NCBI RefSeq assembly: GCF_001510655.1
Contig: NZ_LMVC01000006.1
Coordinates: forward strand, 1-32,422
DNA length: 32,422 nt
Reading direction: 5' to 3'
Source: Fictibacillus sp. FJAT-27399
GTDB lineage: Bacteria; Bacillota; Bacilli; Bacillales; Fictibacillaceae
A program made the position numbers and the translations under genes. How positions within the stretch are numbered: position 1 is the first letter of the stretch; the number at the start of each line of letters is the position of its first letter. Below are positions 1 through 32,422 of this stretch, piece after piece. The notes beneath the pieces are model-generated. The model saw only the letters and a list, made by a program, of their open reading frames with translations, did no database searches and was not told the origin of the DNA.

Positions 1-187
1 GAATTTCACATTTTCTTCGTGCGATATAACGCTGCCGAAGCCTTCCTTGTCCTGCGGGACGAGCGTGACAGGGGAAACCCGCAGGCGCTTGCGCCGAGGG
101 GTTCAGCGCACGCCCCGCGGAAAGGGAGCAGCCTGAAATGGAAATCAACCACTCCCAAGGGCAACAAAGGTTACGAAAACAGCCTTT
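1..187 (-). repeat. Dispersed structured repeat, partial (minus orientation)
   Basis: Read on the minus strand this is a diverged member of the repeat family also seen at 3184-3411, 13425-13725, 30931-31043 and 32205-32422. It shares the CTTTCCGCGGGGCGTGCG core, the CCTGTCACGCT-GTCCCGCAGG segment and the module running to the cut end at base 1. Its head (GGCTGTTTTCGTAACC) differs from the GGGGCTGTCC head of the full copies but matches the copy at 30931. It keeps the inner stem as GGCGC-AA-GCGCC (84-95) and an outer AACCC/GGGTT pairing (76-80 with 99-103). The element continues outside the window. Confidence 0.8.
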
Positions 188-188
188 A

Positions 189-224
189 ACAATAATAAAA
201 CCTGCTCAGGATAAAAAGAGCAGG
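189..224 (-). terminator. Rho-independent terminator of the nucleoside hydrolase gene
   Basis: On the minus strand, CCTGCTC and GAGCAGG (201-207 and 218-224) form a 7-bp stem with a 10-nt loop, followed by a TTTTATTATTGTT tail (189-200). It lies 13 bp past the stop codon of the gene ending at 238. Confidence 0.75.
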
Positions 225-237
225 GTAGAGTGAAAAG

Positions 238-1188
238 CTACATGAGTTCTCCTGTCATGACAGACATGAAGTCATGATAGAACCAGTAAAAAATAAAATC
301 GAACGCAATACGATGTTTCTTTTCACCATTGTTCAAATCGGCATAGGGACGGATATCAGCGATGCTCTGTCCCTTTGTCACCCCGCTGTTCGTATCAATG
401 TATACAGGAAGATGACGAAACGAGAACATGTTCTGATGCAGAGTTGCCATCAGAGTGAGTGCATCATGAACCGGGCTTCCTTTAATACTGGGATTGCGCT
501 TCTTATAAAACTCATAATAAAAATCGAGCAGAGGCTTAATAATTTTAGCTTTTCCTTTAGACTGAATGTAATCGACCATCTGGGGTGTGACGATGGCACG
601 GTCTGTTACATTCAGGGGAATAATCGTTACATTATTGGCATAGTGAAGAACGATTTTTGCGGCAATAGGATCTCCGTGAAAGTTCGCTTCGGAAACAGCA
701 GTAACATTGCCCGGCACCCAAAATGCACCACCCATAATGTACACTTCTTTTACTTTATTCATCACGTCATTGTATAGGATGTACATGCTGGCAAGGGAAG
801 TTAATCTGCCTGTATTAACAATCGTCAATTCACCCGGGTACTGGTTGATGAGTGAGACAACGTCATAAAAGTTTTCAGTGAAACCTTGAGAGGGAAGCTG
901 TTGGGGAGGTTTGATGTATCCCAAGCCGTACTCTCCGTGCACTTCCGGATAAAAGATGGGATCTTCTCCTGTCAACGGTTTTTCAGCACCGAGTATGACC
1001 TTTGTATGCTGGGAAATATTAAATAGATTTACCAGATACGTAATATTGCGCAATCCCATTACCCTAGGAACATTTCCGTAGTCTGCGACCACTCCTATAA
1101 TATCCACCTGTTTACTTAAATACCCGTAAATTAAGGCAATCGTGTCATCGATGCCAACATCCGCAAAAAGCAAAACCTTTTTGGCCAT
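238..1188 (-). CDS. Nucleoside hydrolase family protein (IunH-like), paralog 1
   Basis: A 316-aa protein of the inosine/uridine-preferring nucleoside hydrolase family, which cleaves the N-glycosidic bond of ribonucleosides using a bound Ca2+; probably cytoplasmic. The N-terminal motif reads ADVGIDD (about residues 9-15) where classical enzymes have DxDPGxDD, so the first Asp and the Pro are missing but the Asp equivalent to D10 and the DD pair remain. Other family signs are MGGAF, SEANF..DP and GSPVHDAL, whose His-Asp matches the active-site His and the last Ca2+ ligand. The ATG follows AGGTGAT at a short spacing. A clearly related gene lies at 16914-17864 in the opposite orientation. Family assignment is firm; substrate and activity are open because the metal-binding motif is altered. 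Confidence 0.85.
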   Translation of the reverse strand: MAKKVLLFADVGIDDTIALIYGYLSKQVDIIGVVADYGNVPRVMGLRNITYLVNLFNISQHTKVILGAEKPLTGEDPIFYPEVHGEYGLGYIKPPQQLPSQGFTENFYDVVSLINQYPGELTIVNTGRLTSLASMYILYNDVMNKVKEVYIMGGAFWVPGNVTAVSEANFHGDPIAAKIVLHYANNVTIIPLNVTDRAIVTPQMVDYIQSKGKAKIIKPLLDFYYEFYKKRNPSIKGSPVHDALTLMATLHQNMFSFRHLPVYIDTNSGVTKGQSIADIRPYADLNNGEKKHRIAFDFIFYWFYHDFMSVMTGELM

Positions 1189-1433
1189 GGTATCACCTAA
1201 TTAAATGTTTTTTACAACATATGACTGGAGGATATGTAAAAGAATGTAAAATGGAGGAGGACTTTAGGCTTATCTTTAAAGGGAAAAAGTCTGATAGGAG
1301 AGAATGTGTCCTAGGTGCCTGTTCTAAAGTGTCAATGCCTGATTCATAGGAGGAATGACAACGGATCCTGCGGGCTCGCTTCCATTTAATCGCTTCATAA
1401 AGAATGGGTAACCCTTAAAGAGGAGAGGATTGA

Positions 1434-2162
1434 ATGAAAAAATCTTTTGCCGCATTGCTGGCGGCGAGTACTTTGTTCTCTTTTGCCCCGTTGACCGCCT
1501 ATGCCGACCATCAGGAAGAACAAAAAAATAGGGAAGTTGAGTATGTCGCGTTAGGAGATTCAATAGCCGCAGGAATGACGCCTTATGGTGACATTGACAA
1601 GAGCTATCCGGATTTTATTCAAAGCTATTTTAAAAGATCCCACGTGAAGCTAACAGATTATGATAATTTTGGTGTGCCAGGCTATACTTCAGAACAGCTG
1701 AAAGAGGATGTTTTAAACAATTCAGACGTGATGAAGGAGATTAAAGAAGCAACCCATATTACGATCAATATTGGGGCAAATGATCTTTTTCGCAAACTGA
1801 TGACCGATCCAGCACATGCTTCTGAAGGAATTGCGACGGCCAGTGCCAACCTTCAGTTTATCCTTCAGGCAATCGATAAGCTAAATCCAAATGTGCATGT
1901 ATATGTGATGGGGTATTACAATCCTTTCTCTTATTATGATCAGGATAGCCAAGCGTTCTTAGTTCCTTTGAATAACGCATTGAATTCTGCTATTAAGGAG
2001 GCAGCTGTATCAAATGGCGATTCATATGTCCCGACAGGTGGAGCCATCGATCCCCATTTCCAGAAATACATGCCCAATCCGGAAGATAACCACCTCAACA
2101 TCAAAGGATATAAAGTGATCGCTAAAGAGTTTTGGAGGGTGATAAAAAAGGATGTGAAGTAA
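1434..2162 (+). CDS. Secreted SGNH/GDSL-type esterase or lipase
   Basis: A 242-aa hydrolase exported by a typical signal peptide: MKK start, hydrophobic core and a likely cleavage after TAYA (residue 24). The four SGNH blocks are visible: GDSIAAG (Ser nucleophile, about residue 43), the Gly of FGVPGYTS, GAND (about residue 116) and DNHLNIKG (catalytic Asp/His, about residues 218-223). Such enzymes hydrolyse acyl esters of lipids, sugars or small molecules outside the cell. A GAGGAG ribosome binding site lies 7 nt before the ATG. The gene stands alone and ends at a hairpin terminator shared with the convergent neighbour. The substrate cannot be told from sequence. Confidence 0.9.
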   Translation: MKKSFAALLAASTLFSFAPLTAYADHQEEQKNREVEYVALGDSIAAGMTPYGDIDKSYPDFIQSYFKRSHVKLTDYDNFGVPGYTSEQLKEDVLNNSDVMKEIKEATHITINIGANDLFRKLMTDPAHASEGIATASANLQFILQAIDKLNPNVHVYVMGYYNPFSYYDQDSQAFLVPLNNALNSAIKEAAVSNGDSYVPTGGAIDPHFQKYMPNPEDNHLNIKGYKVIAKEFWRVIKKDVK

Positions 2163-2165
2163 GGG

Positions 2166-2192
2166 GAAAAGAGGACCGAGGTCCTCTTTTTT
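2166..2192. terminator. Bidirectional terminator between convergent genes
   Basis: AAAAGAGGAC / GTCCTCTTTT form a 10-bp stem with a 4-nt loop. A T-run follows on the plus strand, and the symmetrical A/T arms serve the minus strand. It lies between the esterase stop (2162) and the kinase stop (2191). Confidence 0.85.
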
Positions 2193-3054
2193 ATGCAGGT
2201 GAGACGAGTACTTTCCATTTCTCCCATGCCTTCAAATATTCGGGCAAGTCTGCAGGGTGATGCTGAGAACTTCTGGCCAGCCGTGTGAAAAGACCGAGCA
2301 GCACTTCCTCATTAAGGACTTGTTCATCGTAATTCCACATCCTTAATTGCTTTGCAGCAGGAATAATCGTTTCTTGTGTAAGTTCGTTTGCGGTAGAACA
2401 AAAAGCAAAGACAAGATCGTGGAGCGGGTGGCCGATAAAGGTTTGAGGATCAATTAAACCAGAGAGCTCCTGCTCTGAGAACAGGAAATTATGATACCCG
2501 CAGTCACCATGCAGCAAATAAGTGAGTTCAGATTCCTTGCTTTGGGACCTAAGTTTAGCAAGTTCAGCGATAAGCTCGTAATCTTCTTTTTCAAGCAGCC
2601 CAGAATGAATAATTTCTTTGACTGAACATATTTCGTCCTCCAAAAATTGTTCTCTGGAATGCTTAAGGTCGTCCCTGTATCCCCATCCATTTGCTTCAGA
2701 AAAAGGTTGATAGTAATTGAGCACATGCTGGACGAGGGAGGACAAGATGTTTGTTTTGTGCGTCCCGGAACTGTCTGTCGTTCCTGCAAGAAAGGGATAG
2801 ACGATGAATCGGTTCACAGGGTCTTTGTATACGAGACGGGGCAGGAAAGGAATATTCTCGTATTCATTCAAGAATTCCGCCTCTGCATTAATAACATTCG
2901 GTTCGTTGAACTTAAGCACCCATTGTTTTCCGCTTCCATCACGCAGTAATCCGATCGTACTGGTCGTTCCTCCGCTCAAAGGTTCGTAGACGGCATCTTT
3001 TGATTCTATGATCCCTTGGGTGTATAAATCTTTAACAATCCTATCCGTATCCAT
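2191..3054 (-). CDS. Aminoglycoside/choline kinase-fold phosphotransferase (APH family)
   Basis: A 287-aa protein with the protein-kinase-like APH fold, which transfers phosphate from ATP to a small-molecule hydroxyl. The catalytic loop HGDCGYHN (about residues 182-189) carries the Brenner-type Asp and Asn, and LIDPQ about 13 residues later supplies the metal-binding Asp. An N-terminal SGGTTST stretch resembles the glycine-rich loop. An AAGGAG site lies 7 nt before the ATG. It is a single gene convergent with the esterase. The family includes antibiotic-modifying enzymes but also choline, thiamine, methylthioribose and fructosamine kinases. Nothing here points to resistance, so the substrate is unknown. 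Confidence 0.82.
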   Translation of the reverse strand: MDTDRIVKDLYTQGIIESKDAVYEPLSGGTTSTIGLLRDGSGKQWVLKFNEPNVINAEAEFLNEYENIPFLPRLVYKDPVNRFIVYPFLAGTTDSSGTHKTNILSSLVQHVLNYYQPFSEANGWGYRDDLKHSREQFLEDEICSVKEIIHSGLLEKEDYELIAELAKLRSQSKESELTYLLHGDCGYHNFLFSEQELSGLIDPQTFIGHPLHDLVFAFCSTANELTQETIIPAAKQLRMWNYDEQVLNEEVLLGLFTRLARSSQHHPADLPEYLKAWEKWKVLVSPA

Positions 3055-3183
3055 GATCCGAACTCCTTTTTTGTTTGTATCTATTTAAAGAGTAGCAGAT
3101 TCTAGGCCAAATGTTTCATAATTTTTAAGTTTAAAGATCAATCGGGCGGCATCCATTTTTAGCCTTCTGCCTATCAAAAATTA

Positions 3184-3411
3184 GAGGGGCTGTCCAAGAA
3201 GTCTGTAAGCTGTTGATTTCCGTTCCAGGCTGCTCGCTTTCCGCGGGGCGTGCGGTGAGCCTCTTGGTGCAAGCACCGTCGGGAGTCTCACCTGTCACGC
3301 TAGTCCCGCAGGAGTCTCGCATCTTCCACTTCAATTAACTTTTCATTGAAGATTGTTCAAGCCAAAAAGGGGCTGCCTGAAGGTCAATTTTCGAATTTTG
3401 GACAGCCCCTC
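3184..3411 (+). repeat. Dispersed structured repeat with terminal inverted repeats, short form (228 bp)
   Basis: A complete element bounded by perfect 14-bp terminal inverted repeats: GAGGGGCTGTCCAA (3184-3197) and its reverse complement (3398-3411). Inside are GGTGAG (3254-3259) paired with CTCACC (3287-3292), enclosing a GGTGC-AA-GCACC hairpin (3266-3277). Compared with the copy at 13425-13725 it lacks a 60-bp cassette between two AGGA boundaries and about 22 bp carrying the GGCGT-GA-ACGCC hairpin. It has no open reading frame of its own. It sits between two minus-strand genes. Confidence 0.88.
3364..3410 (-). terminator. Terminator-like hairpin formed by the repeat end
   Basis: On the minus strand, AGGGGCTG (3403-3410) pairs with CAGCCCCT (3368-3375) and is followed directly by TTTTT. 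It begins 8 bp after the monooxygenase stop codon, so the inserted repeat probably provides that gene's transcription terminator. Confidence 0.65.
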
Positions 3412-3418
3412 TTCGTTT

Positions 3419-4945
3419 TTATGTCGACTTTAAGGAACGAATCCTGAATTTTTCAAAAAACTGCTTCAGTTTCTCTATGTTTTGGGTATCATCCGCAAGA
3501 GCAACGTACCCATCCGGCCGGACGGCATATAAGGAATCCTGCTTAAGGCCAACATCCTCCATTTCAGGCTGCCACACAAAGGTATGAATCGCAAAGCCTG
3601 CGCTTTTACCATATTCCCGAACTTCCGGATGAATTTCACCGTATACATGAATCTGCCAGTCCATTGTTTTCAGCGGATCGAAATTGTTGCCGCTCTCTGT
3701 CTGAATCCAGGGCAAGCGGTCGCCTCCATGAACTTTTCCGGCCTTACCTTTGCTCAGTGCGCTGTCACGGTACTCAATCCGTGTTTGTGAAACGGTATTA
3801 AAGGCAGCCCTGCGTGCGGCAGTGAAACCAAGCAGCAATGGAGTGACATAGGGAATCAACACCGTACGGAACAGGCGGTTACGAGTATTGCGTCCTACTA
3901 TCATTTGAAAGGCACGGTCGGTTGTTGAGACGAGTGTGCGGGCAAAGGCGATCCGTTCTGTTTCATACGTCTCAAGGATCTCAGGGTCTGCCCTGCCTTT
4001 CAGAACCCATGCAAGCTTCCACGATAAATTAACCGCATCCCCTATACCGGTGTTCATCCCCTGTCCGCCTGCAGGACTATGAATATGGCCGGCATCTCCA
4101 GCTATAAAGCAGCGGCCCTTTCTAAAATGCTCACTGACCCGATGATGAACATGATAGGTTGAGAACCAATTGACTTTATCAACTTTTAAACCAATCTGAT
4201 TTTCAGCGTAAGGCTGGATCTCATCGAATGTAATCGACGTGGACTGCTCAAGCTCACGGGGGATGATGCCGATCAGGCGGATCATTCCCGTACTTCTGAC
4301 CGGCATATACAAACAGAACCCCCTTTCACTGAGATGTACTTTAAGTGAGCGGTCCTGTGTTTCTTTATTTGATGACTCTACATCAGCCACATAAAAAAGC
4401 TGTTCGTACGTTCCACCTGCAAAGTCGAAGCCCAACCCTTTTCGTACGGTGCTGTGGGCGCCGTCACATCCGCATAAATAGTGGAATTCAGCGGTTTCCT
4501 CCATACCGTCTTTCTTCAAAACCGTGCGGACTCCTTCGCTGTCATCCGTAAAAGAAACCAGCTCGGTGTTCCACTCAATGGTGACGCCAGCCCTTTTAAG
4601 CTGTTCCACTAGAAATTGTTCGTGGACATCCTGAGGAAAACTTAAGGCAAAAGGATAAGGGCTGATGTCCTTGCCAAGATCGCTGAACTTGAATTCTGCT
4701 TTTTCTTTCGTTCCTTCACGAAGATGAACGGATTTCATCGGGATGCCGAGACTTACCACTTCATCCGCAATGCCTAATTGACGGTAAAACTCTAAAATTC
4801 TTGCATGGACGACCAATGCTCGAGATGCTTCTCCAGGTCCGGAATGTTTTTCAATAATGCGGAATGGGATCCCCATTTTTAAGAGCTGAAGGGCCAGGAC
4901 AAGCCCTGTTGGACCTGCCCCTACAATCAAGACTTGAGGATTCAT
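3419..4945 (-). CDS. FAD-dependent aromatic-type monooxygenase (PHBH fold)
   Basis: A 508-aa class A flavoprotein hydroxylase. GAGPTG (residues 8-13) begins the FAD-binding Rossmann fold, the DG motif CGCDGAHSTVRKGLGF lies near residues 158-172, and the GD motif FIAGDAGHIHSPAGGQGMN near 275-295 contacts the FAD ribityl chain. About 100 C-terminal residues resemble the thioredoxin-like tail of phenol 2-monooxygenase and rifampicin monooxygenase relatives. These enzymes use NAD(P)H and O2 to hydroxylate aromatic substrates, including some antibiotics. A GGAG site lies 9 nt before the ATG. The start overlaps the stop of the upstream gene fragment (ATGA), so translation may be coupled. The substrate is not predictable. 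Confidence 0.88.
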   Translation of the reverse strand: MNPQVLIVGAGPTGLVLALQLLKMGIPFRIIEKHSGPGEASRALVVHARILEFYRQLGIADEVVSLGIPMKSVHLREGTKEKAEFKFSDLGKDISPYPFALSFPQDVHEQFLVEQLKRAGVTIEWNTELVSFTDDSEGVRTVLKKDGMEETAEFHYLCGCDGAHSTVRKGLGFDFAGGTYEQLFYVADVESSNKETQDRSLKVHLSERGFCLYMPVRSTGMIRLIGIIPRELEQSTSITFDEIQPYAENQIGLKVDKVNWFSTYHVHHRVSEHFRKGRCFIAGDAGHIHSPAGGQGMNTGIGDAVNLSWKLAWVLKGRADPEILETYETERIAFARTLVSTTDRAFQMIVGRNTRNRLFRTVLIPYVTPLLLGFTAARRAAFNTVSQTRIEYRDSALSKGKAGKVHGGDRLPWIQTESGNNFDPLKTMDWQIHVYGEIHPEVREYGKSAGFAIHTFVWQPEMEDVGLKQDSLYAVRPDGYVALADDTQNIEKLKQFFEKFRIRSLKST

Positions 4946-5208
4946 ATCATCGGTCTCCTTTCAGAATTACTGTTTGATTTTTCGTTCACTTTAGGGGAAA
5001 CAGAACTGTTCCTCCCCTGATTGATTAAGATTTGAATCGTGGATGAAGAAGGGGAAGGAGTCTGCATAGAGATCTGTTTTTGACTAAAATCCCTTGGGAT
5101 GACAAGGGCTGCATAATACTTTCTGTCGTTTAGACCCTCTATTGCTTTTTGTTTACCTGAAACAGCATGCCATTTGACAGGTGAATCGCCATCTGACTTC
5201 TCCTGCAT
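4942..5208 (-). pseudogene. Fragment resembling the extracytoplasmic part of a YhgE/Pip-like (ABC-2 type) membrane protein
   Basis: An 88-codon reading frame with no membrane segment. The stretch RKYYAALVIPRDFSQKQ followed by a Pro/Ser-rich run and ILINQG resembles the large extracytoplasmic segment of YhgE/Pip family ABC-2-type membrane proteins, which run to hundreds of residues with flanking TM helices. Here only that internal piece remains, preceded by a lysine run and an in-frame stop just upstream (5236-5238), with no strong ribosome binding site. Its stop overlaps the monooxygenase start by ATGA. I infer a truncated remnant that may still be transcribed. The match is from memory of the family and should be verified. 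Confidence 0.5.
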
Positions 5209-5322
5209 GGCTTTCTTTTTTTTCGACCTTATTCCCTAGGTTGATTTTGCCATGTAGAAGAAGGTATGAAAGTGCAATTTGTAGAATTATTATTACGAAA
5301 ATACTGGTATGGGAGAGGTAAC

Positions 5323-5862
5323 TTGAAAATAGATAAAGTATTTGAATATGATATTAGTAATGATCTTTCGGTGCGTATACAAGAATTATTAAATGGCAGT
5401 TTTCCAGATGTCTATCCAACGAATAGAATTTACTTTAAGCAGTTACCGCATTTTAGATTTCTAGCTTTTAACGAGGAAAGTCAACTCATAGGACATGTAG
5501 GACTGGATTACAGAGTGATGAATTTAAACGGAAAGCCCCTAAAAATACTCGGTGTAATTGATTTGTGTGTTTCGCAAAACGCCCGCTCACAGGGTATTGG
5601 TTCGAGGCTGCTTTTAGAAATTGATAGGTTTTCTCAGGGACGCGATATTGATTTTATACTCTTATTTGCAGATAACATGGACTTATATTTAAGAAATGGA
5701 TATCAATCAGTTGGAAATAAATGCAAATGGATGCAAATTAATCATGAAACCCAAGTTACAAATGGTATAGGTACTGAACACATTTATGAATTAATGATTA
5801 AGCAAGTCGGCATGACCAATTGGAGGGAAGGGAATCTTGATTTATTAGGTTATCTTTATTGA
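5323..5862 (+). CDS. GNAT family N-acetyltransferase
   Basis: An acetyltransferase of about 179 aa of the GNAT superfamily, which transfers an acetyl group from acetyl-CoA. The pyrophosphate-binding loop reads ARSQGIGSRLL, after the beta-4 strand LGVIDLCVS, and LYLRNGYQSVG is the usual C-terminal 'FYxKxGF'-type segment. The frame is open from an ATG at 5266, but that codon has a poor ribosome binding site. TTG at 5323, preceded by GGGAGAGG, fits the domain start better, so I chose it. The gene is visibly more AT-rich than its neighbours, which suggests acquisition from elsewhere. It is monocistronic and followed by a good terminator. The substrate is unknown. Confidence 0.78.
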   Translation: MKIDKVFEYDISNDLSVRIQELLNGSFPDVYPTNRIYFKQLPHFRFLAFNEESQLIGHVGLDYRVMNLNGKPLKILGVIDLCVSQNARSQGIGSRLLLEIDRFSQGRDIDFILLFADNMDLYLRNGYQSVGNKCKWMQINHETQVTNGIGTEHIYELMIKQVGMTNWREGNLDLLGYLY

Positions 5863-5893
5863 GCTATGGGTGAATAGCAGTGTTGCAGGAGAG

Positions 5894-5919
5894 GAGCTAG
5901 ATTGATTAGCTCTTTTTTT
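5894..5919 (+). terminator. Rho-independent terminator after the GNAT gene
   Basis: GAGCTA / TAGCTC stem with a 7-nt loop followed by seven T residues, 32 bp after the stop codon. Confidence 0.8.
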
Positions 5920-6086
5920 ATTGTACCAATGGACAGGCTGATGATACAAACAAAAAACTATTTTATCATCTCATAGTAAAGCCGTATAGGTGGAGTCATT
6001 GATTGATAAAACCTCGCATATTTTCGGGATTTTTACTATCATATAACTAGCAGAGTCGAAACATCCTGAGGAAGGGGCCAAAACAT

Positions 6087-9302: not shown

Positions 9303-9336
9303 AAAGATGACTTCTGACGCTGATGCTAATAACGAG

Positions 9337-10131: not shown

Positions 10132-10142
10132 GAGGTGGATGC

Positions 10143-13424: not shown

Positions 13425-13725
13425 GGGGCTGTCCAAGAAGTCTGTAAGCTGTTGATTTCCGTTCCAGGGTGCTCGCTTTCCGCGCGGCGTGCGGTGAGCC
13501 TTACCGGCGTGAACGCCTACTTTTTGGCGCTAGCGCCAAGAGGCTCACCTGTCACGCTAGTCCCGCAGGACAAGGAAGGCTCCGGCAGCTTTTTATCGCA
13601 CGAAGAAAATGTGAAGTTCATTTTCGAGGAGTCTCGCACCTTCCACTTCAATCAACTTTTCATTGAAGATTTTCAAGCCAAAAAGGAGCTGCTGAAGGTC
13701 AATTTTCGACTTTCAGGACAGCCCC
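13425..13725 (+). repeat. Dispersed structured repeat with terminal inverted repeats, long form (301 bp)
   Basis: Bounded by GGGGCTGTCC (13425-13434) and GGACAGCCCC (13716-13725). GGTGAGCC (13493-13500) pairs perfectly with GGCTCACC (13542-13549) and encloses two hairpins, GGCGT-GA-ACGCC (13506-13517) and GGCGC-TA-GCGCC (13526-13537). It contains the 60-bp cassette (13570-13629) absent from the copy at 3184. Open frames through it (13452-13793) follow the repeat and lack ribosome binding sites. Confidence 0.88.
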
Positions 13726-13801
13726 ATCAAAAATCAAAATGCTCCTGCAGAATGGGTCAGGTCATAGCTGTGGCTCGAACGGGGGATTCATAAGCAAAGA
13801 T

Positions 13802-24529: not shown

Positions 24530-24546
24530 TTAAAGATTGCTAGAGA

Positions 24547-24576
24547 AAGAGGCTGCAGGTGCAGCCTCTTTTTTTA
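24547..24576 (+). terminator. Terminator of the RND pump gene
   Basis: AAGAGGCTGC / GCAGCCTCTT perfect 10-bp stem with a 4-nt loop followed by a T-run. Confidence 0.88.
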
Positions 24577-24675
24577 TGGATTGGATGACAGTCTCTTTCA
24601 TAGAAACCATGTTAAAATATGGTGGGTACGTTAAATATTGTACGGGGTGGATCAGGAGAGGGGTTAAACAATAGA

Positions 24676-25893: not shown

Positions 25894-25955
25894 ATACTTG
25901 TCATCATTTGCCCCAATAAATGGTATAAATGTATAGTAAGTAGGGGGAGGCGAGG

Positions 25956-26071
25956 ATGAGTAAGTATGAGCGCAGCTTCTATATTGGAATAGCCTGTTCT
26001 ACATCTATGACATCTCTGCTCATTGGGAAAAAGGAGACGCAAGCTACGCGCTGGCCATTGAGGTGAAATAG
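25956..26071 (+). pseudogene. Small gene with a probable frameshift
   Basis: ATG at 25956 has a strong GGGGGAGG site. The frame begins MSKYER and ends at 26066 without sense, whereas the -1/+2 frame from about 25975 reads AQLLYWNSLFYIYDISAH, then WEKGDASYALAIEVK, to a TAG at 26069. Joined, they give a plausible 40-aa protein starting MSKYERAQLLYW. I infer a one-base indel near 25973. I do not recognise the family. Confidence 0.4.
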
Positions 26072-26139
26072 CTTGAAGACCAGAGAAAAATTTCTCATGG
26101 ATCAGGAGGAATGTGCATTTTAACAGAGAAGTTTAATAG

Positions 26140-26173
26140 GGCAGTGATGGTTTTAAACCATTCCAGCCTTTTT
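26140..26173 (+). terminator. Probable terminator
   Basis: GGC...ATGGTTT pairs with AAACCAT...GCC around a central TA with a small internal mismatch, followed by TTTTT. It closes the stretch 25894-26244, which otherwise holds only the small frameshifted gene. Confidence 0.5.
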
Positions 26174-26244
26174 CTTCATCATTTGCGAATTCGTTTCATA
26201 GGGTAGAGCAGAGAGATGGTATAAAAAAGGGGAGGTTATGCCTG

Positions 26245-26409
26245 GTGGCTTGGTTATTGCTGCTGTTGATTGCAGCTGCCGTTATGATTGGATTTTTTGT
26301 AAACTCCAGCAAAGCAACGAGGACCATACTCCAAGAGGATGACCCGGTTAAACTTCTAGAATCAGAGAATGCGAAAAATAATAGTTCATACAATGGAGGA
26401 CCGATGTAA
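26245..26409 (+). CDS. Small single-pass membrane protein, unknown function
   Basis: A 54-aa frame beginning GTG-GCT-TGG with GGGGAGG 8 nt upstream. Residues 3-19 form one hydrophobic helix (WLLLLLIAAAVMIGFFV), followed by a charged tail rich in Glu, Asp, Asn and Lys. An overlapping ATG frame from 26238 has worse spacing and is not membrane-like. Its stop codon lies within a terminator hairpin, which supports a real transcription unit. Confidence 0.6.
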   Translation: MAWLLLLLIAAAVMIGFFVNSSKATRTILQEDDPVKLLESENAKNNSSYNGGPM

Positions 26410-26425
26410 TATCGGTTCTTTTTTT
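26398..26425 (+). terminator. Terminator of the small membrane protein gene
   Basis: GGACCGAT / ATCGGTTC (one G-U pair) with a 5-nt loop, then seven T residues; it overlaps the stop codon at 26407-26409. Confidence 0.75.
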
Positions 26426-26442
26426 AGGAAAGGCAGGTGCAT

Positions 26443-26976
26443 ATGCAGATCTTATTGATTCGGCATGGTGAATCAGAAGATGACTTTTTAGATGAAGACT
26501 ACACTGGCTCAACTGATTTGCCGCTGACAAGCAGAGGGGTTGAACAGGTGGAAAGGATGGCACAGCGAGTTTGTGCTGAACTTCCGCCCGATCTGATTTG
26601 GAGCAGTACCCTGATCAGGGCCAGACAGGCAGCTGATCTTCTATCCAAGACGACTGGCTGTTCAGTAACCTACATAGATGACCTTAAAGAAAAACAGGAA
26701 GATGAAAGTAAAACAGACTTCAGGATGAGAGGAGAAAAGATCTTATCCTCAATTAGGGAACTTGGCAAAAATGGCAGCAGAGTTGCGGTTGTTTCTCATG
26801 GAGGCATGATCACCCAGATTATTGAAGGCTTCCTGGAGCTGCCTCTCGTCAACACCGTTTGGTTTCACTCTGACAATACAGGCATTCATCTGCTTGAATA
26901 CACTCGCAATGGCCAGCTCATCCGATTCACAAATTGTACTGCTCACTTAAAAAATAATGAGCAGTTGAGTGAATAA
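26443..26976 (+). CDS. Histidine phosphatase (phosphoglycerate mutase-like)
   Basis: A 177-aa protein of the histidine phosphatase superfamily. LIRHGESE near the N-terminus holds the phosphorylated His with its Arg, WSSTLIRARQAA holds the second Arg and VVSHGGMI the second catalytic His. It probably dephosphorylates a small phospho-metabolite; a mutase role is unlikely given the short length. GTG at 26437 is in frame, but ATG 26443 has GAAAGG 9 nt upstream. It lies 17 bp after a terminator and so is a separate unit. Confidence 0.87.
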   Translation: MQILLIRHGESEDDFLDEDYTGSTDLPLTSRGVEQVERMAQRVCAELPPDLIWSSTLIRARQAADLLSKTTGCSVTYIDDLKEKQEDESKTDFRMRGEKILSSIRELGKNGSRVAVVSHGGMITQIIEGFLELPLVNTVWFHSDNTGIHLLEYTRNGQLIRFTNCTAHLKNNEQLSE

Positions 26977-27062
26977 TATATTGCATCTTAATGTCACATA
27001 TAGTAAAATAAATAAGAACATTTGTTCGTGAAAATTCAAAATAAAAAAACGAGGTGTCTAGT

Positions 27063-27485
27063 ATGATCGTAGGGCTGTATCCTTATTTAGTAACGAATGG
27101 AAATGGACAAGAAGCTGTTAAGTTTTATGAAAAGGCATTGAATGCAAAGGTTTTATCGGTACAAACTTTTGGCGACCAGCCGGAGAATCCGGAATATCCT
27201 GTTCCAGCAGAAGCTAAAGACCGTGTAATGAATGCCCATTTAAAAGTGGGAGATCATGACTTGATGCTTTCTGATACATTCCCCGGGATGCCCTATGAAA
27301 CTGGAGACCAAGTAACAGTAGCAATCACGATTGACAGTGTTGAAACATCAAAAGAAGTTTTTGAAAAATTAAAAGAAGGCGGCCAAGTAATCATGGAGCT
27401 GCAAGAAACCTTCTGGAGCCCATCTTATGGCCAGCTGAAAGATAAATTCGGTGTAACGTGGCAAATTTCAACATTAGGAAAATAA
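27063..27485 (+). CDS. PhnB-like VOC/glyoxalase-superfamily protein
   Basis: A 140-aa VOC-fold protein of the PhnB/YjdN type: YPYLVTNGNGQEAVKFYEKA at the N-terminus, a DHDLMLSD strand in the middle and KFGVTWQIS at the end. The substrate is unknown. GAGGTG lies 6-7 nt before ATG 27063; GTG 27054 is within that site. It ends at a strong terminator. The protein at 11942 is a relative with similar ends. Confidence 0.87.
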   Translation: MIVGLYPYLVTNGNGQEAVKFYEKALNAKVLSVQTFGDQPENPEYPVPAEAKDRVMNAHLKVGDHDLMLSDTFPGMPYETGDQVTVAITIDSVETSKEVFEKLKEGGQVIMELQETFWSPSYGQLKDKFGVTWQISTLGK

Positions 27486-27497
27486 GTTAACTCATCC

Positions 27498-27528
27498 AAA
27501 AAAGCTGCTGCGGCAGCTTTTTTTTTTT
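27498..27528 (+). terminator. Terminator of the PhnB-like gene
   Basis: AAAGCTGC / GCAGCTTT with a TGCG loop followed by a long T-run (11 T). Confidence 0.9.
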
Positions 27529-27539
27529 GAAACTGTCCG

Positions 27540-27662
27540 ATTCTGGCATTATTGGAGAACGGCTTACCCGTTGAACATTTGGCTTTGCTTCTGCATCACG
27601 CTGGTGTGTCAGAAGAGGTAATGGCTGAATTAGCTAAACTTCAACAACGCCGTGTTGGTTAG
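27540..27662 (+). pseudogene. C-terminal remnant of an unrecognised gene
   Basis: An open stretch without a start codon near its front: an in-frame TGA lies at 27528. It reads ILALLENGLPVEHLALLLHH, then AGVSEEVMAELAKLQQRRVG, and stops at 27660-27662. The composition is clearly protein-like (amphipathic helices, no rare codon runs) but I cannot name the family. It probably is the tail of a decayed gene. Confidence 0.4.
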
Positions 27663-27683
27663 GGAATATACTTTAAATAAAAG

Positions 27684-27726
27684 GTAAAAACAGTTGTTAA
27701 TCATTCATTGATTACAACTGTTTTTT
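27684..27726. terminator. Bidirectional terminator
   Basis: AAAAACAGTTGT and ACAACTGTTTTTT pair, extended by TAATC/GATTA with a bulge. A/T runs lie on both sides. It serves the MFS gene that ends at 27735 on the minus strand. Confidence 0.8.
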
Positions 27727-27734
27727 GTAGATCA

Positions 27735-28961
27735 TTATACCCGCCATAAGGACGATCTCCAATATGCTAAAAAGATAAGAACATTTGCCAGTGCAGCAAT
27801 CCAAAAGACGGTACCAGGATGCGAAAACTTCGCGATCCAGCCGGCGGCAACAATGGCAAACGGCATACCGAGCTTGAAGATGGATCCGGTAAGGCCGCCG
27901 ATCCGGCCGATGAGGTGCTGTGGTGTCGTCTCCTGCCTGAACGTCCAGATACAGACGGAGGATACCGTTCCAAACAATCCTTCAAAAAACAAACCTGTTG
28001 CAAGCAGTACAGGGGTATGAGCAAAAAATAAGATTAAGTACCCCAAACCTGAGCCAAATGTCGTCAAACCAAGCAGTTTGCCGAGCTTCACTTTCCTCCT
28101 CAAAATACTGACCATACTGCTGCCTGTCAAGCCGCCCACCCCTGCAAAGGAAAGGGTTAATCCAAGCTCTGATGTGCTCAGCCTCAATTCATCCTTGGCA
28201 AAAAAGACAATCATCGTGTCGACCATACCAGAGGTAGAATTGATAAAAACAACAAGGATAGTAATGAGCCAAAGCGGCCGGTTTTCGCGGAGAGCCATCC
28301 ACCCTTCTTTTAAATCCTCAAGAAAGTGCTGCTTTTTTCGAACAACCACTTCCTTATGATCAAGCTTCAACAAGAATAAAAAGGTGACGAAAAAGGCAAC
28401 AGATGTAAGCAGAAGTCCATCATGAAGACTCGACAGCATCAAGATAAACCCGGTAATCGCTGGCCCCATAATACCGATCAGTGTTGTTACAAACGAAAAC
28501 GAGGCATTGGCCGGTGTGAGCAGCTCGTTCGGAAGCACTTGTTTGACCATACTGTAGCGGGCATTAAAGAACGCGTAGCTGCATGTCATGAGCAGGAAAC
28601 CACATACATAAAAGAGCGGTAAAGAATGATACCCCATCTGCAGGGCCAGGAACAATCCGAATAAAACGACACTCTGGATGCCGATCGTCCAAAGTGACCA
28701 ATGTTTCTTTTTCACCCGGTCGACGAGCACTCCGATGAACATGGCCAGCAGCAGATTTGGCAAAAATTCGATGGCCCTCATGTTCGACATAGCCACTGAT
28801 GAATGGGTGAAATCATATAAAATGAGGGGAAGAGCAAGCTCATAGATCTTCCCTCCGACCGAAAAGATGAGTCCTGTAATAAACAACAGCATAAAATTCT
28901 TATTTTTCCATAACACTGGCTTTTCTGCAGCCCGCATCTGAACGACCTTTTCTATCTCCAT
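27735..28961 (-). CDS. MFS transporter (MFS_3 type) divergent from an SgrR-like regulator
   Basis: A 408-aa transporter with about 12 TM helices. A polar N-terminus is followed by FMLLFITGLIFSVGG; GVLVDRVKKKHW is the loop 2-3 signature and TTPQHLIGRIGGL the equivalent C-terminal segment. It is the efflux-type MFS. GGGAG lies 8 nt before the ATG. The next gene, 104 bp away and divergent, encodes an SgrR-like regulator, which resembles the enterobacterial sgrR/setA arrangement where SetA is an MFS sugar exporter. By analogy this pump may export a sugar-like or peptide-like ligand of that regulator. The substrate is unproven. Confidence 0.88.
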   Translation of the reverse strand: MEIEKVVQMRAAEKPVLWKNKNFMLLFITGLIFSVGGKIYELALPLILYDFTHSSVAMSNMRAIEFLPNLLLAMFIGVLVDRVKKKHWSLWTIGIQSVVLFGLFLALQMGYHSLPLFYVCGFLLMTCSYAFFNARYSMVKQVLPNELLTPANASFSFVTTLIGIMGPAITGFILMLSSLHDGLLLTSVAFFVTFLFLLKLDHKEVVVRKKQHFLEDLKEGWMALRENRPLWLITILVVFINSTSGMVDTMIVFFAKDELRLSTSELGLTLSFAGVGGLTGSSMVSILRRKVKLGKLLGLTTFGSGLGYLILFFAHTPVLLATGLFFEGLFGTVSSVCIWTFRQETTPQHLIGRIGGLTGSIFKLGMPFAIVAAGWIAKFSHPGTVFWIAALANVLIFLAYWRSSLWRV

Positions 28962-29065
28962 CAGAAACGCTCCCTTCTATTACCAGTGTATCTTCCTTAA
29001 ATATGAAAAAAAGTGTAAATTAAAATCAAAACCTTTCATCTTTTATCAAAAAGGAGAGTGACCGG

Positions 29066-30874
29066 ATGCAGCTGCAGGAGCATTACCTCACTTTAAGACA
29101 ACATTACAGAGATACAGGGATCCATCTGCCGCTTTCGGTCACACTGGAGGAGATCAGTTCGGTACTTTTTTGCTCCAAGCGAAATGCAAACTTTCTCCTG
29201 AACAAGATGGTGGATCAGGAGTGGGTGAGCTGGTCGCCAGGCAGGGGGCGGGGGAATCGTTCGTCTCTTGCTTTTTTAATAGAGCAGAATTCCTTTCTGA
29301 TGGAGCTGGCAAAAGAGAAGGTAGTGAAGGGTGACTTAAGTCAGGCTCAGCAACTTTTACATAACTATGAACTGGATGCAGCGTATCAGCAGGAATTCAA
29401 TGTGTGGGTACAGCAGCAGTTAGGCTATCATCTGGAACAGAAGGAGAACATCGCGATTGACGTGCTGCGGTTCCCGTTCTATAGGGAGATCAAAGACATT
29501 GATCCGGCGTATGTGAATCGGCGGACAGAAGCACATTTGATTCAGCAGATTTTTGATACCCTGCTTGTCTATAACGGTACTTCAGGTAAACTCGAACCAC
29601 ACCTTTGTCATCATTGGCGCAGTGATGAGTCACTGATGGTCTGGACGTTCTTCCTGCGGAAAGGAATTCTGTTTCATCACGGGAAGCTGCTAACAGCTGA
29701 AGACGTTAAATACACCATCGAGCGAATTCACGATCCTATTAACGGTTCCCCACATCGATGGATGATGGAGAAGATTCAATCTATCACGGTTGTTCACGAT
29801 TATGAACTAAGAATTGAACTGTCCGAGCCGAATGGCCTTTTTGATTATTATTTTAGTACGGAACGGCTTTCCATCATGCCTCGTGATTTTGAATTGTTGT
29901 CTAACTATAAACGAGAGCCTGTTGGGAGTGGTCCATTTATGGTGGAGAGCAATGACGAGTCACAGCTTCAGCTTACTGCACATACGCACTACTTTAAGGA
30001 ACGGCCTTTTTTAGACCGGATTGAAATTTGGGTATGGCCAGATTATGACGGGGAGAAGATGTTGTTCGTTCCTCCAGGTGAGATGAAATATGTGCCGCAT
30101 CCTATAGTCGCTAGTGAAATGGAAGCGCACTACAAGGCACTCGATCATATTGAAAAAGGAGCGACCTACCTGATGTTCAACCTGAAAAAAGGAGGGCCGC
30201 AGTCTTCGTTTCTTTTCCGTAGAGCGATCGAGCAAGCTGTTGATTCCCAAGACTTGATTGAAAAACTGGGTGGGAAGAGGATGCTGCCGGCAGCAGGTTT
30301 TCTCCCAGCACGTTCACTAGAATCGCAGAGAACACATTCAAAGTCTGAAGCGAAACGCCTCCTTATTGATACCGAATACAAAGGTGAACCTTTAAAGCTA
30401 TATACCTATGAAATGAGAACCAACGAATTAAACGCAGAGTGGGTAAAAGAGCAGCTTGCCAGTGTGGGAGTGGAGATAGAGATTGTGGTTGTACCCATCG
30501 AGGAATTGAAAAAAGCAGAAGTGATGCAGGAGGCCGATCTGATCTTATCAGGGGAAGTCCTTGCCGATCCCGTGGAACTGTCACTGCTCGATATGTATGA
30601 AGTCGGCAATTCCTTTATCAGCTCTTTGATGGATGAGGATCTTCGTGAAGAAAAGGACCAGCTGATTCAGCAAGTATTTAAAGCTGAAACGCCGGAGAAT
30701 CGATTGCTGTATTTTGAGAAAATTGAAGAGCTGTTAAAACAGCGGAGTGCTCTTATCTTTCTTTACCATACACAGCAGAGCATTCTTCATCATCAGTCAC
30801 TGCAAGGTGTGACGCTTAACACGCTTGGATGGGCTGACTACAAGGATTTGTGGATTGAGCGTGTCTCCCTATAG
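29066..30874 (+). CDS. SgrR-like transcriptional regulator with a solute-binding domain
   Basis: A 602-aa two-part protein. Residues about 1-110 are a winged HTH of the SgrR N-terminal type (YRDTGIHLPLSVTLEEISSV, then SKRNANFLLNKM and WVSWSPGRGRGNRSSL). From about 150 on is a type 5 extracellular solute-binding domain: LEPHLCHHWRSDESLMVWTF, then TAEDVKYTIERI. It has no signal peptide, so the binding domain is used as a cytoplasmic sensor. SgrR in E. coli senses sugar-phosphate stress; Bacillaceae members usually control a neighbouring transporter. AAGGAG lies before the ATG. It is divergent from an MFS gene, its likely target. Confidence 0.9.
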   Translation: MQLQEHYLTLRQHYRDTGIHLPLSVTLEEISSVLFCSKRNANFLLNKMVDQEWVSWSPGRGRGNRSSLAFLIEQNSFLMELAKEKVVKGDLSQAQQLLHNYELDAAYQQEFNVWVQQQLGYHLEQKENIAIDVLRFPFYREIKDIDPAYVNRRTEAHLIQQIFDTLLVYNGTSGKLEPHLCHHWRSDESLMVWTFFLRKGILFHHGKLLTAEDVKYTIERIHDPINGSPHRWMMEKIQSITVVHDYELRIELSEPNGLFDYYFSTERLSIMPRDFELLSNYKREPVGSGPFMVESNDESQLQLTAHTHYFKERPFLDRIEIWVWPDYDGEKMLFVPPGEMKYVPHPIVASEMEAHYKALDHIEKGATYLMFNLKKGGPQSSFLFRRAIEQAVDSQDLIEKLGGKRMLPAAGFLPARSLESQRTHSKSEAKRLLIDTEYKGEPLKLYTYEMRTNELNAEWVKEQLASVGVEIEIVVVPIEELKKAEVMQEADLILSGEVLADPVELSLLDMYEVGNSFISSLMDEDLREEKDQLIQQVFKAETPENRLLYFEKIEELLKQRSALIFLYHTQQSILHHQSLQGVTLNTLGWADYKDLWIERVSL

Positions 30875-30930
30875 AACCTTTAATTCTTTCGAGCATAACG
30901 TACCAATAGAGCATCGTTTGTCATTTTATT

Positions 30931-31043
30931 TGGCTGTTTTCGTAACCTTTGTTGCTTTTAGGAGTGGTTGATTTCCGCTTCAGGAGTCTCGCACCTTGCA
31001 CTCCGATAACTTAGCAATGAAGGTTCTTTACAAAAATGTTCCC
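30931..31043 (+). repeat. Dispersed repeat, short internally deleted derivative
   Basis: GGCTGTTTTCGTAACCTTTG opens this copy and matches the head of the copy at 1-187 (minus strand). GAGTGGTTGATTTCC leads straight to CAGGAGTCTCGCACCTT, so the whole central structured part is gone. It ends near 31043. An ATG frame from 31036 starts inside it, which argues against that start for the next gene. Confidence 0.7.
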
Positions 31044-31104
31044 AAAGCAACAATCTTTTAGAAAAGAGCCTTTTATTTTCATGGATTACGAAGGAAATGA
31101 GGAA

Positions 31105-31332
31105 ATGAAAATGCTTGAAATCCTGGCCGTTATTGGTGCAATTATTGGGTTCGCTATCCTATTTTGGGTACGTGCACAGCTGAAAAATCCAAGGGTCTTT
31201 CGGAAAATGGTTCGTCAAGATAACGGGATGCTCCTCTTCTTGATGTATTTGGCCATCGGGGCTGTTGGATTAATGATAGCGGGAGTAAGCATTTCCTGTT
31301 TATATGAAGTGGGCGGCAGACCTATTTCTTGA
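31105..31332 (+). CDS. Small two-TM membrane protein, unknown function
   Basis: About 75 aa with two hydrophobic helices (ILAVIGAIIGFAILFWV and LLFLMYLAIGAVGLMIAGV) joined by a basic loop (RKMVRQDNG). No family is recognised. ATG 31105 has AAGGA 9 nt upstream; ATG 31111 has GAGGAA 6 nt upstream and is equally possible. A longer frame from 31036 starts within the repeat and is unlikely. It ends at a strong hairpin and is monocistronic. Confidence 0.7.
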   Translation: MKMLEILAVIGAIIGFAILFWVRAQLKNPRVFRKMVRQDNGMLLFLMYLAIGAVGLMIAGVSISCLYEVGGRPIS

Positions 31333-31358
31333 TAAGAGAAGCAAGAACTGCTAAACAT

Positions 31359-31400
31359 GAAAAAGCCTGTTTATCGAAACTGGGATAAACGGGCTTTTTC
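31359..31400 (+). terminator. Terminator of the two-TM protein gene
   Basis: GAAAAAGCCTGTTTATC / GATAAACGGGCTTTTTC form a 17-bp stem (one G-U) with an 8-nt loop. The T-run is within the 3' arm. Confidence 0.85.
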
Positions 31401-31440
31401 GTGCTTCAAAAAATGAAACCTGTATATTTTACTTAATTTT

Positions 31441-31465
31441 GTTTGCAAAGTGTAGATCCGGGTAC
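31441..31465 (+). promoter_or_regulatory. Candidate SigB-dependent promoter
   Basis: GTTTGC (31441-31446), a 13-nt spacer and GGGTAC (31460-31465), close to the SigB consensus GTTTAA-N13-15-GGGWAW. It lies 40 bp before the start of a YflT-like general stress gene, whose family is SigB-controlled in Bacillus. Confidence 0.65.
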
Positions 31466-31504
31466 TTAACCACAGTAGAAAGACCATTTATAAAGGAGGA
31501 ATTC

Positions 31505-32194
31505 ATGATGGGCAAGCATGTCATTGGTGTATATGAATCTGAGGAAGCGGCCGTAAGTGCTGTACAGCAATTGCAATTGAGAGGATATGACACAGATGAG
31601 ATCTCCGTAGTAACAAATCATGATCATTATACGGATACCGTGGAAACGATAACCGGTGCAACGGTTGATAATGTAAATGAAAAACCTCATAAAGAGTCTT
31701 TCTTGGACAAACTAAAAGCTGCATTTATGGATGATGAGTACACGAACAGCAAGAATAGCCTGGGAGAAAGATTATCGGATTATGGAATACCCGACCGGGA
31801 AGCTGCATCCTATGCTTCAGACGTGGAATCAGGCAAAATTCTGTTGATGGTCGATTCAGACCGTGATCTTGCAACGGATGAATCAGATGCCTTAAATCCT
31901 GCGAATGCTGGGATTGATTATGGGACATTTAGGATAGCTACGGATGTGGAAGTTACCAGAGATGGATACACTGCAGGGAACACTACTGACAATAACCATC
32001 ATGACAGTGACTTGCGAAGAGATGCTGATGTAATGGATGACAATGAGCGTCCTCTCCGGGCAAACTCGGATCTTACAGATGGTACAGACCGAGACTTATA
32101 CCCAGATGAAGATGGATTGAATGAAGGAGACCGCGACTTTAGAGACCGGACAAGACGAACACCAAGAAACTCGGACGAAGATAAATTGTTTTAA
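31505..32194 (+). CDS. YflT-like general stress protein with a charged, low-complexity tail
   Basis: About 229 aa. The first roughly 120 residues (HVIGVYESEEAAVSAVQQL, then GYDTDEISVVTN, and YASDVESGKILLMVD) form a YflT-type stress domain of unknown activity. The last 70 or so residues are rich in Asp, Arg and Asn, without hydrophobic cores, and are probably disordered. The frame is open from 31439, but AAAGGAGG sits 5 nt before ATG 31505 and 8 nt before ATG 31508, either of which could be used. A SigB-type promoter lies just upstream, so general-stress induction is likely. Confidence 0.87.
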   Translation: MMGKHVIGVYESEEAAVSAVQQLQLRGYDTDEISVVTNHDHYTDTVETITGATVDNVNEKPHKESFLDKLKAAFMDDEYTNSKNSLGERLSDYGIPDREAASYASDVESGKILLMVDSDRDLATDESDALNPANAGIDYGTFRIATDVEVTRDGYTAGNTTDNNHHDSDLRRDADVMDDNERPLRANSDLTDGTDRDLYPDEDGLNEGDRDFRDRTRRTPRNSDEDKLF

Positions 32195-32204
32195 GTAAAG
32201 AGTA

Positions 32205-32422
32205 AGGGGCTGTCCAAGAAGTCTGTAAGCTGTTGATTTCCGTTCCAGGCTGCTCGCTTTCCGCGGGGCGTGCGGTGAGCCTTACCGGCGTGAACGCCTA
32301 CTTTTTGGTGCAAGCACCGGCGGAAGTCTCACCTGTCACGCTAGTCCCGCAGGACAAGGAAGGCTCCGGCAGCTTTTTATCGCACGAAGAAAATGTGAAG
32401 TTCATTTTCGAGGAGTCTCGCA
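32205..32422 (+). repeat. Dispersed structured repeat, long form, cut by window end
   Basis: Begins AGGGGCTGTCC 11 bp after the stress gene and follows the copy at 13425 closely: the GGTGAG/CTCACC arms, the GGCGT-GA-ACGCC hairpin, GGTGC-AA-GCACC and the 60-bp cassette are all present. The 3' terminal repeat lies beyond base 32422. Confidence 0.88.

Follow-up and report, generated by a model that had tools for sequence, protein, structure and literature searches.

A conserved hairpin in two kinds of MITEs of Fictibacillus sp. FJAT-27399, possibly common to several kinds of mobile DNA

The first 32,422 nucleotides of contig NZ_LMVC01000006.1 of Fictibacillus sp. FJAT-27399, herein referred to as the window, contain five dispersed intergenic repeats. 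Do these repeats form a single family, and what maintains their fold? In the original prediction, they were copies of one REP- or MITE-like family, or of a structured RNA, selected as a folded RNA or single-stranded DNA form. As analyzed here, the window repeats are real, gene-free mobile elements that share one hairpin and fall into at least two kinds. This hairpin may be a part common to several kinds of mobile DNA.

The two kinds of elements, types A and B, have in common an imperfect palindrome of ~130 bp, herein referred to as the core. A covariance model derived from 38 cores (set A1) of this and other genomes recovered all five predicted copies in the window; the fifth match is weak. 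The features of the window, with core positions and scores from this model, are the following.

1–184, minus strand: type B MITE, truncated by the contig start; end GGCTGTTTTCG at 184 minus, core at 15–158 minus (58 bits), part of the ~60-bp cassette.
3186–3409, plus strand: type A MITE, complete, without cassette or 22-bp module; both ends, core at 3203–3348 (146 bits).
13425–13725, plus strand: type A MITE, complete; both ends, core at 13442–13665 (70 bits, with insertions), 22-bp module at 13503–13523, ~60-bp cassette from 13570.
30924–30931, unstranded: left 8-bp target duplication TTTTATTT of the 30932–31070 element, read from the sequence.
30932–31070, plus strand: type B MITE, middle of the core lost; both ends, core remnant at 30958–31019 (21 bits, E 0.015).
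31071–31078, unstranded: right 8-bp target duplication TTTTATTT of the same element, read from the sequence.
32206–32422, plus strand: type A MITE passing the window end; core at 32223–32389, 22-bp module at 32284, cassette from 32354.

The expectation of a single family with common ends did not hold, since the copies represent two MITE types. Type A ends, GGGGCTGTCC/GGACAGCCCC, were found in three copies (3186–3409, 13425–13725, and 32206 onward), and type B ends, GGCTGTTTTCG/GAAAAGAGCC, in two (1–184 minus, with only one end inside the contig, and 30932–31070). The last of these had been located correctly and delimited wrongly, at 30931–31043; its true extent is 30932–31070, with TTTTATTT immediately to the left and to the right. 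The 32206 copy extends to contig position 32611. A repeated stretch around an N in this copy resembles an assembly artefact. Further copies of the 3186–3409 element were found in the same genome at 97–98% identity. The predicted removable modules are present as well: the 22-bp hairpin at 13503 and 32284 and the ~60-bp cassette from 13570, from 32354, and from 50 on the minus strand. Both modules are common to types A and B in this genome, where 136 copies of the 22-bp hairpin were found at ≤2 mismatches (reversed-pattern control, 0). The copies were said to have no ORF, which is true in substance; a single mechanical ORF of 113 aa (13452–13793) spans one copy and was taken as chance. The elements show the general traits of MITEs, being short, non-coding, bounded by terminal inverted repeats, and high in copy number.

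Target duplications were looked for, and their presence in type B agrees with the predicted MITE-like nature. A further core-bearing type, type C, was found in other genera, and the termini of all three types are GG...CC. The 64 rows of type B, in which many elements count once per strand, include 31 with an exact 8-bp duplication and 47 with no more than one mismatch (0.5 and 1.9 on average after shuffling); among 29 rows of type C, these numbers were 10 and 26 (0.4 and 1.3 after shuffling). No direct flanking repeat of ≥3 bp was found in 56 copies of type A. Inverted flanks of 4 bp were found in 23 of these 56 copies (shuffled mean 14.5, maximum 20 of 500), and the excess was gone at ≥6 bp. 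No exact empty sites were found, the compared relatives being too divergent or having lost genes; the aligned matching stretches of four congeners, 75.7 kb in total, contain no core according to the covariance model.

The core is widespread in Bacillales: the covariance model matched 232 of the 299 genomes sampled from this order, and 94 of the 116 genera. Contig 10 (188 kb) of the studied genome contains 13 elements, from which the whole genome is extrapolated to hold probably several hundred. Among viral contigs, the pattern was matched in four and the core found in three of them; the 3184 copy had no match in 50,697 phage records. Within the reach of text searches, no name was found for this repeat, in agreement with the original prediction, which gave no family name.

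The stems were proposed to be kept by compensatory changes, and strong covariation supports this. By reading, the inner stems are as quoted: GGTGC-AA-GCACC at 3184 and 32205, GGCGC-TA-GCGCC at 13425, and GGCGC-AA-GCGCC at 1–187 minus. The outer stems are likewise GGTGAGCC/GGCTCACC at 13425 and AACCC/GGGTT in the partial copy. A second set, A2, comprises 88 cores. In the tree-based test, from which 2 of the 88 rows were left out, 16 of 39 pairs passed the null, and all 4 significant pairs of the all-pairs search lie inside the model. In the A2 alignment, which was fitted to the model and so favours the model's own pairs, double changes were found at 27 of 39 pairs, with 357 double-change cells versus a shuffled mean of 94 and a covariation score of 0.288 versus 0.018–0.059 with slid partners. 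Only 2 pairs passed the all-pairs test in a structure-free alignment (5 of 88 rows were left out of the MAFFT tests). The left-arm conservation of A2 is partly by construction, because its loci were picked by an exact left-arm pattern; set A1 was chosen otherwise.

Selection need not be the cause of such changes, as copying from arm to arm at replication, the correction of imperfect palindromes, would account for double changes lacking a strand bias. This explanation seems improbable, with a slight chance of being right, because specific irregularities endure in A1 (of its 38 cores, 36 have a C.T mismatch, 37 a T.G pair, and 30 a bulged A) and the core blocks are nearly invariant across genera. 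If the fold is selected, it could act as an RNA: the core would be a 5′-leader hairpin restraining transposase expression, either by blocking outside read-through or by hiding the start site, and MITEs would carry it by descent only. The core does lie in the leader, in sense orientation, at 10 of 57 IS1182-family loci, and two pairs are fixed as T.G on the sense strand. A precedent has been published in ISPpu9, where a leader structure regulates the transposase, as described in the available part of the report (PMC8450116). Wobble pairs at the remaining positions argue against this role. Outside the two fixed T.G pairs, G.U and A.C were found 82 and 74 times in A2, with no strand bias (243 and 74 with the fixed pairs included), 24 and 40 times in A1, and 13 and 8 times in the structure-free alignment, versus 22 and 2 times in the SAM riboswitch control. 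A tRNA control (35 G.U and 0 A.C in 21 tRNAs) was discarded in favour of the SAM riboswitch, as the tRNA finder rejects mismatches and so biases the counts. Moreover, the plus strand forms the more stable fold in only 28 of 88 cores, and the core is retained in gene-free MITEs in either orientation relative to tandem genes (14 along and 17 against, in a count of 67 cores from which 14 were dropped for overlap with mechanical ORFs of ≥100 aa and 4 more as unclassifiable). A leader RNA is considered unlikely. Since the core, outside the two fixed T.G pairs, lacks the wobble strand bias of SAM riboswitches, folded DNA is favoured over a one-strand RNA. Of the two predicted forms, DNA fits better, and a structured RNA is disfavoured by the wobble pairs, by the lack of an orientation preference, and by an Rfam 15 search of the window, which gave no match at gathering thresholds.

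Transposase genes provide the link from this DNA hairpin to its possible movers. At 10 of 57 IS1182-family loci, a sense-oriented core was found after the 5′ end of the element and ahead of its transposase gene; the other 47 have no leader core. The 10 leaders have at least four kinds of ends, and several of these loci are closely related (L415, L418, and L426 belong to one genus). Type A-like ends, GGGGCTGTCC(C)(A)..AAGTC, adjoin IS1182 genes at two loci of relatives (L090 and L104), and a third locus (L412) combines ends similar to type A with a core inside the leader. Some IS1182 elements have duplicated terminator hairpins on their two sides, a difference from the published IS1182/IS1272 descriptions. 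An IS1182 gene at E 1e-50 was found in 122 of 299 genomes versus 232 with cores; thus, at least 110 genomes have a core and no IS1182 gene at this threshold. No intact type A partner element was found in the gapped assembly of the studied genome, where the IS1182 match is a 53-residue fragment (profile positions 436–488).

Types B and C show some resemblance to another family. ISL3 elements produce 8-bp target duplications, the length seen in types B and C, and an ISL3 element in one genome (G043) starts with GGCTCTATGTCAATTGTTGG, which resembles the GGCTCT-N12-TGTTG of both types. The core was found in none of 30 ISL3 loci, and the studied genome has no ISL3 match. An end-pair scan of collected loci, plasmid matches to the type B and C ends, and viral contigs yielded no autonomous parent of type B or C; for plasmids, annotated surroundings were inspected for four of ten matches. 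One locus with type B-like ends and a 497-aa ORF (L381) was rejected as a type B parent, its end pair being taken as chance because the flanks have no duplication and the protein was judged by eye to be a glycosyltransferase.

The occurrence of one core inside several end types, some within one genome (A and B here, others by eye), and the sharing of both modules between types A and B could also mean that the core is, or was, an independent mobile hairpin inserting into transposons, with IS1182 leaders and MITEs as mere hosts. We regard this as quite unlikely, given that all 10 leader cores lie upstream and in sense and that, copies without recognisable outer ends aside, no duplication or gene of the core's own was identified. 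The predicted REP element moved by a RAYT is very improbable. RAYT-family matches are indeed frequent, occurring in 49 of 60 relatives, including the studied genome, and in 41 of 46 core-positive versus 8 of 14 core-negative genomes. However, the core was found near just 1 of 22 RAYT loci, there inside a type C element, while several RAYT genes have GGGNCTGTCCCC motifs nearby instead. Five core-positive genomes (G002, G003, G004, G038, and G045) have no RAYT match, and the 8-bp duplications of types B and C suit DDE transposition.

The explanation that we favour, with about an even chance of being correct, is that the core belongs to IS1182-type elements as a DNA-hairpin module with a putative role in transposition, which the MITEs of these elements have retained and which ISL3-like MITEs also carry. 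The MITE copies would be non-autonomous transposon derivatives, moved in trans by transposases acting on their ends: IS1182-family-like ends with inverted-repeat-like targets and no target duplication for type A, and ISL3-like ends with 8-bp duplications for types B and C. Such MITEs lack the transposase gene yet retain the core, which as a cruciform or single-strand hairpin DNA may aid transposition, possibly by drawing the element ends together or as a binding site for transposases of a family with known stem-loop use. The core would also have passed between IS1182-like and ISL3-like carriers. A wider proposal is offered tentatively, as possible but well short of probable: one hairpin module, selected as folded DNA and not RNA, would be shared among unrelated transposon families across the order and act in cis on transposition, or offer a landing hairpin to IS1182 transposases, which use stem-loops, and small carriers would thereby outcompete non-carriers. 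If the core is indeed a cis module common to several transposon families, this would bear on why only some MITEs reach hundreds of copies. A high-copy repeat is here tied to transposases already known for stem-loop use, and the comparison of G.U with A.C is a simple DNA-or-RNA test for conserved folds, applicable to other RNA-like repeats.

Several known systems share traits with these elements. Similarly to REP and REPIN sequences with their RAYTs, as described in the available parts of PMC3116915 and PMC3733652, the core repeats are high-copy extragenic palindromes; unlike them, the core is absent from the 22 RAYT loci except for the single one mentioned above. ERIC of enterobacteria, according to the available text of PMC2229807, is also an intergenic imperfect palindrome of ~127 bp whose mobilising enzyme is not shown; compared by description, it has TA termini, whereas the elements analyzed here have GG...CC ends and several outer end types. 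The bcr1 repeat is likewise a mobile intergenic Bacillus repeat of ~150 bp with a conserved fold (PMC3733652, PMC2267715, available parts), but by description, in a cited title, it is specific to the Bacillus cereus group, unlike the core. IS1272, a member of the IS1182 family, transposes by replacement of stem-loop targets (PMC5678879, PMC4923244) and, according to the available text of PMC5678879, leaves no target duplication. Type A resembles IS1182/IS1272, as described in the available parts of both papers, in its ends, its absent target duplication, and its inverted-repeat-like targets. It differs in the conserved leader hairpin and in the MITEs, neither of which is mentioned in those parts ("mite" has 0 occurrences in the available text of PMC5678879).

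The five copies proposed in the original prediction were all recovered by the covariance model, one of them weakly, but they do not form a single repeat family. They fall into two types of MITEs with different ends: type A, with IS1182-like ends, and type B, with ISL3-like ends. The two were fused in that prediction because both contain the same ~130-bp imperfect palindrome, hereafter called the core. The following features were found in the window:

1-184, minus strand: type B MITE, ends GGCTGTTTTCG/GAAAAGAGCC
3186-3409: type A MITE, ends GGGGCTGTCC/GGACAGCCCC
13425-13725: type A MITE, ends GGGGCTGTCC/GGACAGCCCC
30932-31070: type B MITE, ends GGCTGTTTTCG/GAAAAGAGCC
32206 to window end: type A MITE (type A ends being GGGGCTGTCC/GGACAGCCCC)
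13503-13523 and 32284-32304: 21-22-bp hairpin module

The type B copy at 30932 has TTTTATTT at each flank and has lost the middle of the core. The 22-bp hairpin module and the ~60-bp cassette are present, as predicted, in part of the copies, and both were found in type A and in type B. Allowing up to 2 mismatches, the hairpin module occurs 136 times in this genome (reversed-pattern control, 0), and it occupies two core sites: after GAGCC (loci L027-L034) and before CGCGGGG (L040, L049, L057, L058). These two different sites give the module the look of a mobile unit in its own right. In this assembly, many copies contain an N bordered on each side by a repeated stretch (L011-L013, L032, L036, L037, L405), likely a scaffolding artefact.

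Target-site duplications were found for type B and for type C, a further MITE with ISL3-like ends (GGCTCTGTTAAA/TTTAACAGAGCC) seen in other genera. In the flank tables, whose rows are not independent because many elements were entered once per strand and of which a few are spurious, an 8-bp duplication was exact in 31 of 64 type B rows and had at most one mismatch in 47 (shuffled-flank means 0.5 and 1.9), with no exact duplications at 6, 7, 9, or 10 bp; for type C, the counts were 10 and 26 of 29 rows (shuffled means 0.4 and 1.3). By reading, both types share the plan GGCT(C/G)T-N12-TGTTG(A/C). An element of 1,028 bp in L389 (5571-6598) is bounded by type C ends, has AATCAAAA at both flanks, and contains a lipoprotein-like ORF and no transposase.

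For type A, no direct flank repeat of 3 bp or more was found in 56 copies (53 from this genome and 3 from congeners, a few rows touching assembly Ns). The flanks were mutually inverted over 4 bp in 23 of these copies (shuffled mean 14.5, maximum 20), and the excess was absent at 6 bp or more. Type A-like ends adjoin IS1182 genes in relatives (L090, L104). Judged by eye from the listed flanks, four more end types seem to bear the core in other genera: GGCCACTGAAAAA, CTGTAGACAAACTCGA, GTTTCGAGA, and GAGGCTGGGACAAAA; GGCCACTGAAAAA and CTGTAGACAAACTCGA were found also at the ends of full-size IS1182 elements. A terminator-like palindrome in two copies flanks many IS1182-family elements of relatives (L089, L091, L093, L413-L415, L418-L420, L422, L425, L426, L428), as if the whole hairpin were duplicated on insertion.

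The predicted compensatory changes were supported statistically. In a MAFFT alignment of 38 diverse cores, with a 39-pair structure drawn on the same alignment, double changes were found at 28 pairs (score 0.192 vs. 0.033-0.054 for slid partners). In 88 cores aligned to the covariance model, an alignment biased toward its own pairs, they were found at 27 pairs, with 357 double-change cells vs. a shuffled mean of 94 and a covariation score of 0.288 vs. 0.018-0.059. Under a purpose-written tree-based null of the R-scape kind, run on 86 of the 88 cores, 16 of the 39 pairs had E <0.05, and 4 of 9,870 column pairs passed the all-pairs test, all four in the structure. A structure-free MAFFT alignment of 83 cores gave a cleaner but weaker result: two pairs passed, nested in one stem, and several next-best pairs share the same two diagonals, others lying elsewhere. 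Plain arm-to-arm copying was considered as the source of the compensatory changes; a C.T mismatch retained in 36 of the 38 cores and a T.G pair in 37 speak against it.

A fold at the RNA level tolerates G.U more than A.C. In the 88 model-aligned cores, 82 G.U and 74 A.C cells were counted without the two fixed T.G pairs (243 vs. 74 with them), and in the 38-core alignment, without two pairs that are mostly T.G, 24 vs. 40. On the structure-free alignment with the RNAalifold structure, the counts were 13 vs. 8 over 17 pairs (plus strand) and 17 vs. 2 over 8 pairs (minus strand). A control of 30 SAM riboswitches from the same order, obtained by different methods, gave 22 vs. 2. Outside the fixed pairs there is no strand bias, and the plus strand gave the more stable fold in 28 of the 88 cores. 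Based on mechanical ORFs, cores between tandem genes run along the gene direction in 14 cases and against it in 17, and convergent gaps with a core number 15 and divergent ones 3, vs. a background of 18 and 36 (Fisher p 0.0003), an excess expected if insertion occurs behind genes. Together, wobble counts, strand stability, and gene context favour a DNA fold; of the two forms originally proposed, folded RNA or single-stranded DNA, the RNA is thus disfavoured. In full-size elements the core may nevertheless have a leader-RNA role.

Such elements were scanned with the covariance model at 57 IS1182 loci, in sets of 30 and 27. In 10 of them (L098, L099, L106, L412, L415, L416, L418, L426, L431, L434) the core lies within the element, upstream of the transposase gene in sense orientation; these cases are not independent, since L415, L418, and L426 belong to one genus. 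By chance, ~0.7 correctly oriented cores would be expected in 350-bp leaders among the 57, an estimate from the core density of this genome, which varies between genomes. Of the L099 element, the contig includes just the 5' end, and in L106 the gene (231 aa) has been shortened internally. The ten elements have at least four kinds of ends, those of L412 (GGAGCTGTCTCAAAAG) being close to type A. A second, inverted core is located on the 3' side in L416; in L112 and L115 the core is upstream of a C-terminal gene fragment, and in L089 it is outside the element. The remaining loci had no core near the gene by the model, save a weak cut-off match in L424, and none was found in 30 ISL3 loci. The core-bearing IS1182-family element of L098 (1120-3118) interrupts the apical hairpin of a further core. 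Paired cores in inverted orientation, at spacings between about 40 bp and 1.4 kb, were observed in L297, L302, L332, L333, L345, and L416.

The core is widespread. In this genome, the 187,833 bases of contig 10 contain 14 model matches at E ≤0.05, counted as 13 elements, which extrapolates to some 300 elements in total. By blast, 46 of 60 relatives match the 3184 copy or its core, and the proposed covariance-model search found cores in 232 of 299 genomes and 94 of 116 genera sampled from the order. A pattern scan of named genomes gave at least 117 stretches; represented among the 80 listed are Peribacillus, Priestia, Neobacillus, Rossellomorea, Sutcliffiella, Halobacillus, Oceanobacillus, and further genera of Bacillales, alongside a single Pisciglobus and a record with the label Arthrobacter. 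That label is carried by L354, with a core, and by plasmid CP053689.1 (L408), with a type C end-like match; both are possibly mislabelled organisms. Seven plasmid records (Priestia, Peribacillus, Bacillus badius) also match. Three viral contigs (L402, L403, L404), perhaps one related phage or prophage, bear a core with identical score. No core was found in 75.7 kb of matching stretches from four congeners, aligned in parts to window bases 214-25652, so the congeners lack the 3186 and 13425 copies at the corresponding positions.

The core would be needed in cis for transposition and hence retained by MITEs; its folded DNA may be used by the transposase or in pairing of the ends, and it may have been transferred between carriers. 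Alternatively, the core may lead an independent life, apart from its carriers. Partners are often missing, since an IS1182 gene was found at E 1e-50 in only 122 of the 299 genomes vs. cores in 232; together with the partly related leader cases, this slightly reduces our confidence in the overall reading. In this genome ISL3 gave no match and IS1182 just a short fragment, so the enzyme that moves its copies may be lost, hidden in assembly gaps, or a member of another family.

Rfam gave no match in the window. The core family was not found in the available parts of the literature on such repeats, MITEs, RAYT, and IS1182 (compared: PMC3733652, PMC2267715, PMC4923244, PMC5678879; for ERIC, PMC2229807). 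Single-copy RAYT-like genes with GGGNCTGTCCCC motifs close by in relatives (L119, L132-L134, L136) seem to belong to a distinct REP system of the order. We file the repeats as MITEs, an already known class, whose structured DNA module is common to several transposon types. The published IS1272, an IS1182-family element, is described as replacing stem-loop targets with no duplication (PMC5678879, PMC4923244), and type A fits this mode of insertion.
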